Assembly: GCA_017962615.1 (NCBI GenBank)
Contig: JAGCUZ010000054.1
Coordinates: 1-47,269 of the forward strand
Source of the DNA: Bacteroidales bacterium
Lineage (GTDB): Bacteria; Bacteroidota; Bacteroidia; Bacteroidales; P3
Direction: 5' to 3'
Length of the DNA stretch: 47,269 nt
Shown: piece after piece, positions 2,022-35,678 of the stretch
Position numbering within the stretch: the first letter of the stretch is position 1
How the letters are laid out: the number at the start of each line of letters is the position of its first letter
Position numbers and translations under genes: made by a program
The notes under the pieces: generated by a model
Seen by the model: only the letters and a program-made list of their open reading frames with translations
Told to the model about the DNA's origin: nothing
Database searches by the model: none

Positions 2022-2034
2022 AGTGCTAAAAGCG

Positions 2035-3351
2035 ATGATAAAGATACTTTGCACCGGCGACTGGCATATAGGCAATGTATTTCATGGCATTGACCGCACA
2101 GCCGAGCACCGACATTTCTTTGAATGGCTTGAGGGCATGCTGATTGAGCGGCAACCCGATGCGTTGCTGGTTGCAGGCGACGTGTTCGACAACAGCAACC
2201 CTTCGGCCGAGGCGCAGTCGTTGTATTATGGCTTCCTCGACCGCGCCACCCACGCTGTACAAGGGCTGCAGGTGGTGGTGACAAGTGGCAACCACGACTC
2301 TGGCAACCGGTTGGAGGCTCCGCGCCACCTGCTACTGCGCCACGGCGTGGAGGTGCGCGGAAGTCTGCGACGCTTGCGCAGCAACAGCACCGACAGCTCA
2401 GAAGCAACCGCCGAATACAACGACCTGCTCGTGCCGCTACACGACAAAGAAGGCCGTCCCGCCGCTGTGGTGGCCACCCTCCCCTACCTGAGGCTGGAGC
2501 AGACAGCAGGCGGCAACTACTCTGACGGTGTCCGCAAGGTTATGAAAGAGTTATGTACCATAGGGCGCGAACGCTACAAAGGGCTACCCCTAGTCATGAT
2601 GGCGCATCTGTATGCCTCGGGCGCAGAGATAGCCGAAGGGTCGTCGGAACGCATAGTCGGCGGCCAGGAGCAGGTTGCTTTGGACTCATGGGAAGGGCAT
2701 CCCGACTACTTCACCTGCGGCCACATACATAAACGCCAGCCCATCTGGGGCACCGATTGGGCACGCTATACGGGCAGCATACTTCCCATGTCGTTTGCCG
2801 AACGGGGCTACCGTCACGGTGTCGACCTCGTCAGCATAGGACAAGATGGAAAACCCGAAGTAGAATTCATCGAATACCATGTACAGCACCCGCTTGTAAG
2901 CCTTCCCTCCGACGGTGCCGCCGACGAGAGCACGCTGCTGCAACTCATCGCAGCGCTGCCATCCCGTTCTGAAGCAAAGCCCTCAGAACATTGCGTCTAC
3001 CTCGAACTTAAACTCAAGTCAGACAACGTACAAGCTGAGGTTGTGCAAAAGCTGCACGACACCGTGGAGAGAAAAGACGCCATCATCTGCCGCATGGAGA
3101 AGGTGATGCCCGACATCGAGATTCGTTCAATGAACGGTGAGGAGGTGTTCAACACCGTCGACGCAATTATGAAAAGAGACCCAATGGACGCCCTCGAGGA
3201 ATGCTTCGAGATAAAGAACGGCAAAGGCAGCCTCGGCGAACGCCGTCGCCAACTGCTTGAACAGGTAGTACGCGCCTGTGCCTCCGAGACTGCACAACAA
3301 GACGATGCAGACCCACCCCCACCCTCATCACCCGAAGACCATACGATATGA
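2035..3351 (+). CDS. sbcD: exonuclease subunit SbcD (Mre11-type nuclease)
   Basis: This metallophosphoesterase nuclease partners with SbcC to cut hairpins and process DNA double-strand ends. Conserved metal ligands are visible: GDWHIGN (about residue 8-14), AGDVFDNSNP (near 47), SGNHD (near 84), MAHLYASG, and CGHIHKRQPIW (near 232), followed by YTGSILPMSF. I chose the ATG at 2035 because it gives the family N-terminus MIKILCTGDWHIGN; a GTG four codons earlier (2023) is possible. The acidic Pro-rich tail (DDADPPPPSSPED) is short and not conserved in the family. The stop overlaps the sbcC start as ATGA (3348-3351), indicating translational coupling. Confidence 0.95.
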   Translation: MIKILCTGDWHIGNVFHGIDRTAEHRHFFEWLEGMLIERQPDALLVAGDVFDNSNPSAEAQSLYYGFLDRATHAVQGLQVVVTSGNHDSGNRLEAPRHLLLRHGVEVRGSLRRLRSNSTDSSEATAEYNDLLVPLHDKEGRPAAVVATLPYLRLEQTAGGNYSDGVRKVMKELCTIGRERYKGLPLVMMAHLYASGAEIAEGSSERIVGGQEQVALDSWEGHPDYFTCGHIHKRQPIWGTDWARYTGSILPMSFAERGYRHGVDLVSIGQDGKPEVEFIEYHVQHPLVSLPSDGAADESTLLQLIAALPSRSEAKPSEHCVYLELKLKSDNVQAEVVQKLHDTVERKDAIICRMEKVMPDIEIRSMNGEEVFNTVDAIMKRDPMDALEECFEIKNGKGSLGERRRQLLEQVVRACASETAQQDDADPPPPSSPEDHTI

Positions 3352-6300
3352 TTAGATTCCTGCGCCTTGAGATAAAAAACCTGGCATCGCTGCAAGGCGA
3401 TACACCGCATGTGATAGACTTCGAGAATGGTCCACTCGCCGAATGCCAGATATTCAGCATCGTCGGACCAACAGGAAGCGGCAAGTCGACGATACTCGAC
3501 GCCATCTGCCTTGCCCTCTACGGCTCGGCACCACGCTATCCTTTGCGTAAAGGGCAGAAAGGGAAGATAAACATAATGGGCGAAAGCGACGAGGATGAGC
3601 GCAACCGGCTTGCACCCACCGACCCGCGCAACATTCTTACCAAAGGGCAACGCAACGGTTTCAGCAAACTCACCTTCACCGCCAACGACGGCGGCCTGTA
3701 CCGTGCCGAATGGCACGTCTCGTTCAAACGCAAGCTGTACACCAAGCCTGCCACCATGCTCTATCGCATCGACAACGGCATCGAGCAGGAACGCGACTGG
3801 AACAGCCTGTCATTGATGCTTGGCATCGACTTCGACGAATTTCTGCGCACAGTGCTCATAGCCCAGGGCGGCTTTGCGGGATTCCTCAACGCCAAGGAGG
3901 ACGAACGCTACCTGCTTCTCGAGAAACTGGTTGGCAACGGTAAAGCCTACCAACGTATTGCCGAACAGGTAGCCATAGAGCGCGAAAAGGCCGAGCTGAA
4001 CTGCAACACACTGAAAGCACAATGCGCCGCTTACGAGAACGACATACTCGACGAAGAGACCAAAACCACGCTGCAACAGGAGATTGCCGCACTTGTAGAT
4101 AGAGAAAAAGCAGTGGAGTCGAGGCGGGAGCAGGTTAAGAAATGCATGGATTGGTATCAACAGGAAGAGGCTCACATCAAGAACCTTCAGCTCTGCGAAG
4201 CAAAAGCTAGCGAGGCTCAACAGGCCATGGACAGCATGACCGCAGCAGCCTCTCGACTCCAACTGCACGACGACACCGGCGAAGCCGCCGAACTGCTCCG
4301 CAGCCATCGGTCGCGGCTCAAATACGCAACCGATCAGGAGCAAACCCTGAACTCTCTCCGAGTACAGCTGGAGCAGCAAAGCAACGAGGCGGTGCAAGCC
4401 ACTGAAAAGCTCAACACCGCAACCGCCGAGGCCGCCAAAGCCACCGACACTCTCAACGCCATGATGCCGCATATACAGAAAGCACGCATCATAAAAGCTC
4501 AGATTGAGAACGATACCGCACAGCTGAAAGTGTTACAAAGCGAGCACGACAAGGCGGCGAAAGAGGCAAAAGAGGCCTGCGATGCATGTGAACGCAACCG
4601 AAAAGAATACCACCAGGCCGTGACCGATGAAGCCGAAGCCGCAAAACGGTACGACACCACAAAGCACGACTCTGCCGAACGGCAGAAAGCATTGTCTGAA
4701 AAACACCAGGCAGCCCAAGACGCTCTCACCGCAGCACGCAAGTTACTTGAAGGCTGCGACAGCAACAGTCTGCAACAAGCCTTCAACAACGCCGTAAACA
4801 CTTGCAACGACATAGAAAAGGCCATACACACCGCCGAGTTAACCGAGCAGAAAAGAACGACCATCGAGCAGCAGGAAAAACGTGCCAAAATCCTCGAAGC
4901 AGACACCGCTGGCATCGTCCTCCGCCTCTCCGCCTTGCACCCTGATGTCCTCGAAAAAGAGGTATCACTGCTCAACGACACCTACACCCTCATGAACAGC
5001 GAGCAGTGGGCGCACCACCGCCACAACCTCAAAGAGGGCGAGGCCTGCCCACTATGCGGTGCCGACCATCACCCCTACGCCGCCGACTATCACTACAAGG
5101 AGGCCGCCGACAAACTGGGCGGGATGCTCAAAGAAAAACGCGAACATCTTGAGTCGCAACGCAAAGAGCAGCAAGACCTATCCACCCGCAAAGCCAACAA
5201 CGACGGTGTCGCAAAAAATATACATTCATCTTTGGACACCCTGCGCAACGAACTGCAGCAACTCGAAAACGACTGGCTGAAGATTGCGCAGCGTCATCCC
5301 GAATGGGAACGCGACATTGCACAGCTAAAAGTCTTCCAAGCCTCTGCCCTCCAAGCCAAACAGGATGCCGGCCAGGCTATGAAGCGCTACAACGACGCCC
5401 TGCAGGAAGCCACCCACTGCCAACGTGCCGCCGATGCCGCCACTCAAGCCCTGCTCAACGGCGAGCGCAGTAACGCTGCCGCACTGCAGGACGCCGACAG
5501 CCACAGGCAGCTGTGCACAACACGTCGGGCCACCCTCGAAGTGGCAGCCAGCAGCCTACAGCAGCAATGCACCGAGAAGAAAGGCACACAGGACGAGGTC
5601 GCCACAAAACTCCGCAATGCGGCCGATAAGATTGCCGTACTTAAAGAGAGTGCCGACAAAGAGACTGGCGGCATTGACCCCGACGCATACGAAAACACCC
5701 TTCAGCAACGTTGCAAGGAGACTGTCGAGGCGGTGAACGGTCAAAAGGAACTTCTGGCCAAGCTCGCCGCCAGACACAGCGCCATAGAAGGCGAAATCAA
5801 AGCCACAACCGTCAACAAACGAAACGCCGAAGCCGAGGCCACCCGCCTGCTCACGCAACTCAAGCTATGGATATCAAGCTACAACAGCAGCCACCCGTCG
5901 CAAATATCCGTAGCAACTATTGAGGAACTTACCACCTCGCCCGACGACTGGAACGCAATACGCAACACCTTGCAGAAACGGCGCAACGACCTCACCGCGG
6001 CGCAAACCACCCTGCGTAACGAGAGAGAGTCCATCGCCAAGCATCAGGAGCAGAAACCCGCCGAAAGCCTCGAAGATCTCGAAGCCGAACGGCAACAGCT
6101 GGCACAGCAGAACTACCGCGACACATTGCTCGAGAAACAGGCTGTCATACGGCGGCACGAGAACGCCATGGCACAACTCGGCGGACTTGCCAAAGCCAAA
6201 GCCGAGGCCGACAGTCTGAAAGCCGACTGGGACGCCATATACAGCGCCATTGGTTTCCGCGAAGGCAAAGATCTGCGCAAGATAGCGCAGTGCTATACCC

Positions 6301-6725
6301 TGCGGTTCCTCGTCGAACTGGCCAACACCGAGATAGCCAAGTTCAACCGACGCTATGCGCTCGAACAGGTGAAGAACTCGCTCGGCATACGCGTCATCGA
6401 CCACGATCGCTTCGATGAGCGGCGCGACACCACGTCGCTGTCGGGCGGCGAGACCTTTGTGGTCTCGCTGGGACTGGCACTAGGGTTGGCATCCCTGTCA
6501 CCAGGTAACGCCGCTTTCGCCAACCTCTTCATCGACGAAGGCTTCGGAACCCTCGACCCTGAGAACCTCGCAACGGTAATAGCAGCACTCTCAGCCATGC
6601 AGTCGCACCACGGCAAGAAAGTGGGAGTCATCTCCCACACTGAGAGCATGTCGGAAGGCATACAGACTAAAATCCGCGTAATCAAAGACGGCAACACTGG
6701 CACCAGCCACATCGAGGTGGAATGA
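3348..6725 (+). CDS. sbcC: exonuclease subunit SbcC (Rad50-type SMC ATPase)
   Basis: The ATPase arm of the SbcCD complex has 1125 residues. Walker A GPTGSGKST lies at about residues 40-48. Two long Ala/Glu/Gln-rich coiled-coil arms follow. The zinc hook CPLCGADHHP near residue 567 separates the arms. The ABC signature LSGGE lies near 1031 and Walker B FIDEGFGTLD near 1060. All catalytic elements are present and the length is typical (about 1000-1200). It overlaps sbcD by four bases. Hairpin cleavage by SbcCD is of interest here because the same window carries two 23-bp perfect hairpins, a class of sequence that SbcCD normally destabilises. Confidence 0.95.
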   Translation: MIRFLRLEIKNLASLQGDTPHVIDFENGPLAECQIFSIVGPTGSGKSTILDAICLALYGSAPRYPLRKGQKGKINIMGESDEDERNRLAPTDPRNILTKGQRNGFSKLTFTANDGGLYRAEWHVSFKRKLYTKPATMLYRIDNGIEQERDWNSLSLMLGIDFDEFLRTVLIAQGGFAGFLNAKEDERYLLLEKLVGNGKAYQRIAEQVAIEREKAELNCNTLKAQCAAYENDILDEETKTTLQQEIAALVDREKAVESRREQVKKCMDWYQQEEAHIKNLQLCEAKASEAQQAMDSMTAAASRLQLHDDTGEAAELLRSHRSRLKYATDQEQTLNSLRVQLEQQSNEAVQATEKLNTATAEAAKATDTLNAMMPHIQKARIIKAQIENDTAQLKVLQSEHDKAAKEAKEACDACERNRKEYHQAVTDEAEAAKRYDTTKHDSAERQKALSEKHQAAQDALTAARKLLEGCDSNSLQQAFNNAVNTCNDIEKAIHTAELTEQKRTTIEQQEKRAKILEADTAGIVLRLSALHPDVLEKEVSLLNDTYTLMNSEQWAHHRHNLKEGEACPLCGADHHPYAADYHYKEAADKLGGMLKEKREHLESQRKEQQDLSTRKANNDGVAKNIHSSLDTLRNELQQLENDWLKIAQRHPEWERDIAQLKVFQASALQAKQDAGQAMKRYNDALQEATHCQRAADAATQALLNGERSNAAALQDADSHRQLCTTRRATLEVAASSLQQQCTEKKGTQDEVATKLRNAADKIAVLKESADKETGGIDPDAYENTLQQRCKETVEAVNGQKELLAKLAARHSAIEGEIKATTVNKRNAEAEATRLLTQLKLWISSYNSSHPSQISVATIEELTTSPDDWNAIRNTLQKRRNDLTAAQTTLRNERESIAKHQEQKPAESLEDLEAERQQLAQQNYRDTLLEKQAVIRRHENAMAQLGGLAKAKAEADSLKADWDAIYSAIGFREGKDLRKIAQCYTLRFLVELANTEIAKFNRRYALEQVKNSLGIRVIDHDRFDERRDTTSLSGGETFVVSLGLALGLASLSPGNAAFANLFIDEGFGTLDPENLATVIAALSAMQSHHGKKVGVISHTESMSEGIQTKIRVIKDGNTGTSHIEVE

Positions 6726-11129: not shown

Positions 11130-11266
11130 TTGCCCTTCCGCACCGCACTCCTTATTTTACATACCACTAAAAACCAGGGCTTTACAAGCCCAAAATCCAC
11201 TCGTGCAAAAAATCGCATTTTTTTGCACGGCACCACGATTTTGACCAATTTTTGGTAAAGCGTAAG

Positions 11267-11315
11267 TATATAGATGATAAGGAGTTGGTGGGACCAACTC
11301 CTTATCATCTATATA
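11267..11315 (+). repeat. long hairpin repeat, copy 1
   Basis: The arms 11267-11289 and 11293-11315 are perfectly complementary over 23 bp with a 3-base loop (GGG). The flanks are CGTAAG on the left and CCTTCTCT on the right. The same element, in the opposite orientation, occurs at 35366-35414 with the same flanks and one compensated base-pair difference (position 8 of the arm, A:T here and T:A there). There is no U-tract, so it is not a standard terminator. Confidence 0.92.
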
Positions 11316-11377
11316 CCTTCTCTATATGTACCATATATTTGCCCTGAAACGGGTGCCAATCGGCACGGTAAATCATG

Positions 11378-11488
11378 TCGGTCGGGAGTCGATTTGGTAT
11401 CGGTTGGGCACTAATTGGACATCAGTCGGGCATAGGTTGGGAGTCGGTTGGGAATCGGTTGGGAAATGGTTTGGCTGTGGTTTGACAG
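11378..11488 (+). repeat. degenerate 11-bp tandem array next to hairpin copy 1
   Basis: About ten units of 10-12 bases around TCGGTTGGGAA. Successive units include TCGGTCGGGAG, TCGGTTGGGCAC, TAGGTTGGGAG, TCGGTTGGGAA, TCGGTTGGGAAA and TGGTTTGGCTG. G-runs recur once per helical turn. It lies about 60 bp downstream of the hairpin in the same relative orientation as the array at the second hairpin. Confidence 0.8.
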
Positions 11489-11644
11489 TATTCAGAGAGG
11501 GGATTGGATATGTTCGAGGGGGGATTGAGGTGTATCTGGAAAACGATTTAGCAAGGTTTATTGAGCGGATTCGATTTCGACAAAAAGATAGTCCGCAGGG
11601 CATTCAGGATGCTCTGCGGATTGTTTCAAGATGGAATTGCGGGA

Positions 11645-19364: not shown

Positions 19365-20765
19365 TTATCGGCGACCAGTGCGGCCATTGCCGGTATTACG
19401 CGACGTGCTGCCATCGCCACTTGTAGAGGTGCCGTTGTTGGTGTTGATTCTGCTACGTGTCGAACCACTGTTCACGTTGCTACGGGAAGAGCTGTTGTTA
19501 CTGCTGCTGGTCGATGCGCCGCGCGAGTTGCTGCTGCCACTGTTCAACGTTGTACTACGCGAGGTGCTGTTGTTATTGCTGGTGGCAGTGCTGCGCGAAG
19601 TGTTGCTGTTGTTCGTGTTAACAGAGGTTGCACGCGATGTGCTGGCACTGTTATTGTTGTTCACAGTAGAGCGAGAGGTGTTGTTGCTCGTGTTGACAGT
19701 AGTTGCACGCGACGTGTTGGCACTGTTATTGGTGTTCACAGTGGAGCGAGAGGTGTTGTTGCTTGTGTTGACAGTAGTTGCACGCGATGTTCCGACATTG
19801 TTACTGGTGTTTACCGTGGAGCGAGAGGTGTTGCTGTTACCCGTGTTAACGGTAGCACGCGACGTATTGCCGTTGCTTGTGTTCACAGTGTTGCGGGTTG
19901 TACTGCCTGTATTGTTGCCCGTATTCACATTACCACGCGAGCTATTACCCGTGTTGCCACCATTGTTTACTTTTCCACGAGAACTATTGCCGGTATTTCT
20001 CCCATTATTCACATTGCCTTGCGAGTTGTTGACTGTGTTGTTACCTGTGTTCACATTGCCACGGGAGTTTGTATTGGTGTTGTTGCCAGTACTTATGCGG
20101 CCAGTTGGACGGGTGTCGCCACTCCCGTTGCCAATATACTCATACCCTGAAAAGCCATGGTACTGGCTGTTAGTGTAGTGCGGACGGTCGATACCCGGAG
20201 TGAATGGACGGTCGGGATGCGGAGGCATGGTGCCTGGTCTACGCATATAATAGGGGTGCATGTGCGGCGGAGGCATACCGGGACCCGGCATTGCAGGCGG
20301 CAACCATCCATATTGATGCACATCGTAGTGATAGGTGCGGACATAACCAGGCGCGTGCACCACACGTACGAAGGTGCTGTAGCGCGGCATGTTCCACGCA
20401 AACGACGGCACAGTGCGCGTGTTGCGGAAACGCATATAATCAGCGGCACTGTACATGTTGTTGCCATTGAAAAGCCATATGCACGACAGGTCTATCGGCA
20501 TATAAATCTCCTCGCCGGTGTAGGCATCGTAGCCGAAAATCCATATTTCGTAGTACTTACTGTTGATACCTTCCATCCAAACATCGGAAAGAATCACATA
20601 GGTTGCAAGCTCGTTCTGATAGCCGCAATAGATCATCAATTCGGGCTGTCTGTTCAACGCTGCAACCACCCGCGTAGCCTGCGGATGAGTGAAGAAACGG
20701 ATGTTGTTGGCCGACGCGGTGAACAACAAAGCGCAGAAAGCCACTAAAAAAGCAAACTTTTTCAT
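19365..20765 (-). CDS. exported protein with a 240-residue Asn/Ser/Thr/Arg repeat tail
   Basis: The 466-residue protein has three parts. A signal peptide, MKKFAFLVAFCALLFTASA, is followed by a folded domain to about residue 140 (ATRVVAALNRQPELMIYCGYQ, EIWIFGYDAYTGEEIYMPIDLSCIW in two strands). A Pro/Met/His-rich linker spans about 150-210 (PGPGMPPPHMHPYYMRRPGTMP). From about residue 225 to the end the chain is almost only Asn, Ser, Thr, Gly, Val and Arg, in degenerate units such as NTSRSTVNT and NTSRATTVNTSN. I know no family match for the whole. The tail resembles surface or matrix low-complexity repeats and may be an O-glycosylation substrate (Bacteroidales modify D-S/T-hydrophobic motifs, which are rare here) or an adhesive, prion-like tail. 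Confidence 0.85.
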   Translation of the reverse strand: MKKFAFLVAFCALLFTASANNIRFFTHPQATRVVAALNRQPELMIYCGYQNELATYVILSDVWMEGINSKYYEIWIFGYDAYTGEEIYMPIDLSCIWLFNGNNMYSAADYMRFRNTRTVPSFAWNMPRYSTFVRVVHAPGYVRTYHYDVHQYGWLPPAMPGPGMPPPHMHPYYMRRPGTMPPHPDRPFTPGIDRPHYTNSQYHGFSGYEYIGNGSGDTRPTGRISTGNNTNTNSRGNVNTGNNTVNNSQGNVNNGRNTGNSSRGKVNNGGNTGNSSRGNVNTGNNTGSTTRNTVNTSNGNTSRATVNTGNSNTSRSTVNTSNNVGTSRATTVNTSNNTSRSTVNTNNSANTSRATTVNTSNNTSRSTVNNNNSASTSRATSVNTNNSNTSRSTATSNNNSTSRSTTLNSGSSNSRGASTSSSNNSSSRSNVNSGSTRSRINTNNGTSTSGDGSTSRNTGNGRTGRR

Positions 20766-24809: not shown

Positions 24810-24845
24810 CTGTCTTCCTGTGTTATATTTATGACAATAAAAAAA

Positions 24846-24941
24846 GGGTAAGCTGTTTATATCGCACCGCTACAACCAAACACCCTTGCTGCATTCCTGC
24901 CCTGGGGGATTCAATGGGAGCTGGTCGTATAAGACTTACCC
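24846..24941 (-). ncRNA. ffs: signal recognition particle RNA, small bacterial type (4.5S)
   Basis: On the minus strand the roughly 96-nt RNA starts GGGTAAG and ends CTTACCC, so the ends pair. The apical SRP core is present as CAGGGCAGGAATGCAGCAAGGG, close to the conserved GG-CAGG--GGAA-G-AGCA pattern that binds Ffh. A run of T residues follows on the minus strand (24838-24845), giving a terminator-like end. A textbook promoter lies just upstream. It binds Ffh to target membrane and secreted proteins. Confidence 0.9.
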
Positions 24942-24946
24942 GATTG

Positions 24947-24977
24947 CAAAAGTACGCATTTTTTTTAAATTGGCAAA
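24947..24977 (-). promoter_or_regulatory. promoter of the SRP RNA
   Basis: On the minus strand TTTG (24974-24977), 19 bases, and TACTTTTG (24947-24954). The predicted first base of the RNA is about 6 bases downstream. This is the cleanest Bacteroidota consensus promoter in the window. Confidence 0.85.
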
Positions 24978-35245: not shown

Positions 35246-35340
35246 TAGATGTTTTTCCGACTATTTTTCGATCATTTCCCGACCGATTTTTGACCATTTT
35301 TAGATTATTTTCCGACTAATTTTCGATTGATTTTCGAATG
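35246..35340. repeat. 11-bp phased T-tract array next to hairpin copy 2
   Basis: About 8.5 units in strict 11-base register: TAGATGTTTTT, CCGACTATTTT, TCGATCATTTC, CCGACCGATTT, TTGACCATTTT, TAGATTATTTT, CCGACTAATTT, TCGATTGATTT. Phased T-tracts near the helical repeat predict intrinsically curved DNA. Confidence 0.85.
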
Positions 35341-35365
35341 AAATAAAGGGTGCATTTAGAGAAGG

Positions 35366-35414
35366 TATATAGTTGATAAGGAGTTGGTTGGACCAACTCC
35401 TTATCAACTATATA
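35366..35414 (-). repeat. long hairpin repeat, copy 2
   Basis: The arms 35366-35388 and 35392-35414 are perfectly complementary over 23 bp with a 3-base loop (TGG). Read on the minus strand it has the same flanks as copy 1 (CGTAAG ahead, CCTTCTCT after). One base pair differs from copy 1 and both arms carry the compensating change. Confidence 0.92.
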
Positions 35415-35678
35415 CTTACGATTTACGTTCTATATACCAAAATTGGGGTGTTGACGGATTTTCAATCTGTTTTTTATACCGCTATTACTTATTGATTACC
35501 ATATATTTATGCACAAAACTGGTAATTTTGGGCGTTTCTATGGTAGAACGGCTTTTTATGGATGTTTTTGCCGTTTTTGAGACAATGAGATTGGGAACGG
35601 AAACCGGGGGTGTTATTTTCTAAAACAAGAGGTGCCATCGACATGCCGGAAAGACTCCCGACGGGTGCGGCGGACGGC

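Follow-up and report, generated by a model that had tools for sequence, protein, structure and literature searches.

A chromosome-wide family of evenly spaced intergenic palindromes built of 11-bp units in a Bacteroidales genome, with congeneric counterparts of different sequence

Arrays of 11-bp repeats are known from parC of plasmid R1, where they are bound by the oligomerising protein ParR. The element described here has a step of 11.0 bp, equal to the parC repeat length, but its sites are many, evenly spaced and chromosomal, whereas parC is a single plasmid locus. Among dispersed elements of Bacteroidales, the BrickBuilt MITE of Porphyromonas gingivalis is described as carrying 23-nt direct repeats between a leader and a tail, with terminal inverted repeats, in 19 copies, for some of which target duplications are reported (PMC4596501). 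The REP/REPIN elements with RAYT are high-copy extragenic palindromes of species-specific sequence (PMC3116915; PMC3733652), and the next-neighbour distances above 200 bp of the SBW25 REPs fit a random model (PMC3116915). The extended motif of Escherichia coli gyrase shows G/C variation phased at 10 bp to either side of its centre, and the enzyme cuts BIME-2, a class of intergenic palindromes proposed to organise the genome (PMC6379681).

Like BrickBuilt, the present element occurs in Bacteroidales, is intergenic, dispersed and species-restricted, and contains tandem repeats; unlike BrickBuilt as described (PMC4596501), its units are 11 bp long and inverted about a dyad, it is present in 83 copies, no target duplication was found and its spacing is even. 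With REP/REPIN it shares the high copy number and the species-specific palindromic sequence, whereas even spacing, the absence of a consistent GTAG or CGTC tag and Y1 genes without flanking elements set it apart from the published REP description (PMC3116915). Its symmetric, phased sequence recalls BIME-2 and the gyrase motif, but the phase is 11.0 bp instead of about 10 bp, the units are exact repeats and there is one site per 10-26 kb (PMC6379681 for the comparison).

The window, that is, the whole stretch of DNA analysed, comprises 47,269 nucleotides of contig JAGCUZ010000054.1, from a Bacteroidales MAG (the source genome, G000; 2,009,018 bases in 71 contigs, 67% complete). A first-pass annotation, made from the letters of the window, had described a perfect 23-bp stem (11267-11289 with 11293-11315) closed by a 3-base loop, and a second copy at 35366-35414. 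The first stem pairs throughout and gains one further G:C pair, giving a 24-bp palindrome that spans 11266-11316, with the left arm at 11266..11289, the loop GGG at 11290..11292 and the right arm at 11293..11316, all on the forward strand and in element orientation; the loop reads NGG in 64 out of 69 copies. Its DNA fold has a z value of -10.5, which none of 200 shuffles equalled. The second hairpin is equally real: inverted repeat I6 has 24-bp arms at 35365-35388 and 35392-35415, around the loop TGG (35389..35391; CCA in element orientation). The flanks CGTAAG and CCTTCTCT, which the annotation had described as kept in inverted orientation, are so kept at both copies, and the pair at arm position 8 is, as it had noted, A:T in the first copy and T:A in the second. 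The 111-position core of covariance model R1 matches 11233..11343 on the forward strand (125.2 bits) and, inverted, 35338..35448 on the reverse strand (127.8 bits), although the model was built from these same copies, so that a high score is given by construction. At the threshold of the period scan, the window holds just two lag-11 arrays, one beside each copy: a G-rich array on the right flank of the first (11415-11492), and a C-rich array adjoining the second (35287-35341), which is likewise its right flank in element orientation; both are given on the forward strand. Elsewhere, the window carries a Bacteroidales small SRP RNA gene (24842-24948; Rfam RF04183) and, within a reading frame, three spaced 75-bp direct repeats of 80-100% identity (19599-19836).

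Adjacent sbcD and sbcC genes were also found in the window (2023-6725), with sbcD above the TIGR00619 cut-off and the Walker B and AAA_23 matches of SbcC above the Pfam cut-offs. SbcCD is a palindrome-cutting nuclease; the long palindromes thus persist despite the presence of its genes, and loss of SbcCD is ruled out as the cause of their persistence.

The hairpin is one of at least 83 similar palindromes set at fairly even intervals along the chromosome. With as many as 3 mismatches allowed, the source genome contains 83 occurrences of the core GATAAGGAGTTGGTNNNACCAACTCCTTATC and none of the reversed-pattern control, so the hairpin is not a product of chance. This number disposes of two possibilities that the annotation had raised against its own reading, namely that only these two copies exist and that the two loci are a recent duplication. 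An alignment of 69 copies was made from the 70 out of 83 that were extracted, omitting one cut by a contig end (L013). The covariance model built from it recovered 82 copies at full length, the lowest scoring 95.7 bits, and one truncated at a contig end; below these, at 84.4 bits, came the antisense reading of another copy. The model scored 150 out of 591 first-look candidates in the source genome, and decayed copies could therefore have been missed.

The element is larger than the hairpin. Across the 69 copies, strong conservation extends from about -60 to +52 around the centre, a stretch that aligns without gaps except for a 10-column insertion in one copy (L083), and weaker conservation reaches about -120 and +130. 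The inner stem is near-invariant, with a perfect inner 12 bp in 47 out of 69 copies, and the full 23-bp stem is perfect in 18 out of 69. The right arm exists in several versions, so that outer pairs fail in up to 46 of the 69 copies. An exact 11-bp period runs through the core, whose right side shows a lag-11 identity of 0.58 against 0.32 expected (0.22 at lag 10 and 0.19 at lag 12) and further peaks at lags 22 and 33; the same lags recur weakly in the flanks, out to 350 bp. For several hundred bases outside the core, 70 copies show a GC skew of about -0.2 to the left and of +0.2 to +0.4 to the right; within the core the skew is reversed. Each element is a dyad of 11-bp units about a palindrome, usually set in flanks that turn from C-rich to G-rich.

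The annotation had read the double change at arm position 8 as an argument for selection on the folded form, and not for chance. The part concerning chance stands, since the dyad is kept in 83 copies against 0 controls. The part concerning the fold does not. Of the 69 copies, 34 have T:A at this pair, 19 have A:T and 16 leave it unpaired. Two-sided change was found at only two stem pairs, with the arm-position-8 pair accounting for 19 out of 20 such cells, and the RNAalifold covariation term amounts to -0.14 kcal/mol. The double change is a single two-state allele, and RNA covariation was dropped as main evidence. Moreover, copies exchange segments, and related sequences consequently outperform column shuffles without any structure. 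The compensatory change is best read as an allele copied into both arms and is no proof of RNA folding. Two elements of a congener (G028) give a lead to how the arrays change: one (L283) carries an entire additional 11-bp unit in each of its arms at once, which looks like the copying of one arm from the other, and another (L271) has one 11-bp unit fewer in one arm only.

Sequence exchange among dispersed copies was evident from the distribution of variants. In a four-gamete test of 43 two-state columns, 672 out of 903 site pairs showed all four combinations, as did 320 out of 408 pairs lying across the centre. Linkage disequilibrium (r2) decayed with distance, being 0.29 for sites 1-5 bp apart and 0.04 for those 61-110 bp apart. 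In some pairs of copies, a long shared flank occurs to one side and not to the other: L014 and L061 are alike from -400 to +65, L056 and L082 from -352 to +63, and L053 and L080 from -60 to +334. One-sided sharing together with the decay of linkage disequilibrium fits conversion between dispersed copies, although recurrent mutation could mimic part of the linkage pattern. Between species, positions turn over. For 11 elements of G000 or G028, the G009 stretches contain an orthologue of a neighbouring gene, and 3 of these 11 have a G009 element no more than 600 bp away (P 0.48), which gives no positional conservation beyond chance. Nor was conservation of position found for G085 and G069, in 14 ortholog rows, several of low identity and with no count against chance.

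The elements are placed between transcription units. None of the 54 copies examined in the source genome overlaps a predicted gene, with gene calls taken from a crude codon-score script. Fifteen of these 54 had no called neighbour within the fetched DNA; the remaining 39, with both neighbours, comprise 18 divergent, 15 codirectional and 6 convergent pairs. The corresponding counts are 5, 6 and 0 for G085 and G069 (2 out of 13 elements being too close to a contig end), 2, 18 and 7 for G028 (three loci being second readings of elements already counted) and 15, 15 and 8 for G009. When the four data sets are pooled (40 divergent, 54 codirectional, 21 convergent), divergent pairs exceed convergent ones (p 0.02). 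However, the preference for divergent genes is clear in G000 (18 against 6) and reversed in G028 (2 against 7), and given this disagreement no firm orientation rule is claimed. Codirectional neighbours are under-represented in G009: 15 out of 38, compared with 237 out of 312 gene pairs in the background (p 1e-5).

Spacing is more even than chance in three species (G000, G085 and G009), as judged against uniform placement rather than placement in real intergenic gaps. The 34 within-contig spacings of the source genome range from 7.7 to 39.0 kb, with a mean of 22.0 kb and a coefficient of variation (CV) of 0.36, against 0.84 under uniform placement, a regularity not reached in any of 20,000 simulations. 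Setting aside copies less than 700 bp from contig ends leaves 23 spacings and a CV of 0.37 against 0.83. Neighbouring copies are oriented at random relative to each other, 16 pairs pointing the same way and 18 in opposite directions. G085, which carries a different palindrome, has 18 spacings with a mean of 26.5 kb and a CV of 0.49 against 0.78 (P 0.004). In G009, across 418 kb of stretches picked for holding exact copies, 30 spacings have a mean of 10.5 kb and a CV of 0.42 against 0.93 (0 of 20,000 simulations); the two below 5 kb measure 3.2 and 4.4 kb, so there is no absolute exclusion zone. Among the incomplete matches first listed for G009, the regularity was less clear (P 0.26) than in the full set. 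Among the matches listed for G028, none of 50 spacings is below 5.3 kb (regularity P 0.014), and among those listed for G064, none of 24 is below 10.0 kb (CV 0.76 against 0.82, P 0.33).

The G000 core pattern was not found in 60 other genomes, apart from one match with 2 mismatches in G027, and the model found no element in 119 other congeners, apart from a 37.8-bit match in G085. This match is a long palindrome of different sequence in the same setting. Congeners keep the plan with other unit sequences: searches with their own cores gave 64 matches in G085, 130 in G009, 81 in G064 and 141 forward matches in G028, where some elements match twice. G009 and G064 have a common core, CAACTCCTACC, similar to part of the G000 arm. 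In G028, each of the 27 distinct elements inspected carries inverted arrays of 11-bp units, mostly free of mismatches over ~44 bp per arm. The flank skew is weak in G028 (-0.10/+0.09) and near zero in 2 out of 4 elements examined in G069. No copy of four element cores was detected in 2.9 million viral contigs, and the G000 element was not found in phages and plasmids. The sole match in the genome-contig database (L157), without the flanks and without a long palindrome, was taken as chance.

A blind period scan of 20 congener stretches (337 kb) detected 10 lag-11 arrays in 7 of the stretches, and none at lags 9, 10, 12 or 13, along with 13 arrays at lag 7 and 5 at lag 14. Seven longer stretches of congener contigs (776 kb) held 27 lag-11 arrays against 16 at lag 7, and no other lag exceeded 9. 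Scans of 400 kb from other genera in the family and of 276 kb from other families yielded no lag-11 array. G004 and G116 each have two lag-11 arrays and no repeated palindrome in 200 kb. Other periods occur as well. The 13 arrays of 7-bp units in the 337 kb (TGATGAG, ACCTTGA, GTTAAGA and others) were seen in L198, L199, L201, L202 and L208, and the 400 kb of other genera held 13 intergenic-looking arrays of 21-bp period (L243, L245, L246, L252 and L254-L257). The latter, spanning two helical turns, may correspond in the sister genera to the 11-bp arrays.

The annotation could name no known class for the hairpin, and the element fits none of those tested. It had also remarked that the lack of a T-tract speaks against an ordinary terminator. 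This is borne out: a scan of 11130-11644 gave two terminator-like sites, neither at the hairpin, and an intrinsic terminator is rejected because no T-tract follows the stem. It had proposed looking for a Y1/RAYT transposase; two Y1 transposase genes are present in the source genome, neither flanked by an element. The nearest elements lie 3.2 kb (C22) and about 24 kb (C40) away, the gene on C40 being 142 bp from a contig end, so that one side of it is unseen. A GTAG or CGTC tag within 12 nt of the stem, on either strand, was found in only 4 out of 69 copies, and REP/REPIN with RAYT is ruled out on both grounds. Among 59 copies, no fixed-offset direct repeat of at least 5 bp, as expected of a target-site duplication, occurred in more than 6, in a test that variable-length ends would escape. 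A 4-bp direct match at -69/+67 is present in 16 of the 59, at positions where the consensus flanks are both A-rich, and own-locus direct repeats of 8-10 bp are slightly in excess (17 against 10.6, P 0.015). Similarity between copies fades with distance and has no sharp ends. The lack of a target-site duplication at fixed ends counts against a MITE, and BrickBuilt is rejected because the period is 11 and the arms are inverted, in place of 23-nt direct repeats. No Rfam match was obtained at the window's elements or in 10 element loci, which sets aside structured RNAs of curated Rfam families. A word search of open-licence papers found no description of such elements. The defining features tested for known classes were absent from the family.

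Even spacing, gene avoidance, random orientation, absence from viruses, the 11-bp step and species-specific units together point to a DNA site that would be read by a protein and needed at intervals. We favour, with slightly less than even confidence, the reading that the element belongs to a family of intergenic DNA sites, spread over the whole chromosome, for a chromosome-organising protein, which would bind the arrays and divide the chromosome into domains; both protein and function are inferred here from sequence. A protein with an 11-bp step would load cooperatively onto each array, starting at the dyad and spreading outwards, and an array every 10-26 kb would yield domains, the arrays acting as loop anchors, topological barriers or segregation sites. 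The specificity of the protein would drift over time, and gene conversion between copies would let the set of each genome track it. More tentatively, each species may mark its chromosome every 10-26 kb with its own dyad of 11-bp units, read by a fast-evolving protein and homogenised by conversion, so that sequence and positions turn over and step and spacing are kept, as in the centromere satellites of eukaryotes.

The strongest competitor, in our view unlikely, is a mobile miniature element moved in trans, in which the 11-bp units would be transposase sites and target immunity would separate the copies. Dispersal at high copy number between genes, positions that differ between species and the even spacing that target immunity would yield all agree with it, and in Bacteroidales BrickBuilt offers a precedent, as described, for joining a MITE with a minisatellite (PMC4596501). 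However, the excess of 8-10 bp repeats is slight, no fixed-offset duplication appeared, the copies fade instead of ending sharply, the unit differs between species at a constant step, and no mobile source emerged among Y1 transposases, the type searched.

It is improbable that the elements are strong sites for DNA gyrase or topoisomerase IV, which would set supercoiling domains through a symmetric, helically phased wrapping sequence; this account is a special case of the protein-site reading. The phasing of the gyrase motif on both sides of its centre and the cutting of BIME-2 in E. coli (PMC6379681, as reported there) lend it support, as do the symmetry and domain-scale spacing of the elements, but the period is 11.0 with peaks at lags 22 and 33, lag 10 in the core falls below expectation, and exact species-specific palindromes exceed what a motif read indirectly needs.

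More doubtful still is a satellite free of function, with slippage producing the 11-bp repeats, hairpin copying the palindrome and conversion the spread. The 7-bp arrays common in the same genomes, the 21-bp arrays of sister genera and the unit-number changes in L271 and L283 are what such a process might leave, yet it explains neither even spacing in three species and gene avoidance nor the persistence of palindromes in a genome that encodes the SbcCD pair.

The least probable account, a bidirectional terminator or intergenic RNA hairpin, Rho-dependent or not, which RNA would enter C-rich and G-poor from either side, agrees with the C-to-G skew around the centre in G000 and with the position between genes and outside operons, but has against it the missing T-tract, an excess of divergent over convergent pairs where convergent ones should be favoured (though the data sets disagree), several units, such as TGTACAGTATA and TTATACTATAT, that contain no YC dinucleotide, and the even spacing, which it leaves unexplained.

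There is no settled account of how bacteria divide their chromosomes into domains. To our knowledge, evenly spaced, sequence-defined boundary sites are not among the known repeat classes. If the elements are sites for a chromosome-organising protein, as we favour, the family would point to a hitherto undescribed means by which bacterial chromosomes are marked or organised, in a genus whose candidate boundary sites can be read from sequence and differ between species. Deleting or relocating such candidate sites is feasible, as is using them as bait for a protein. The family also illustrates clearly the concerted evolution of short, dispersed DNA in bacteria.
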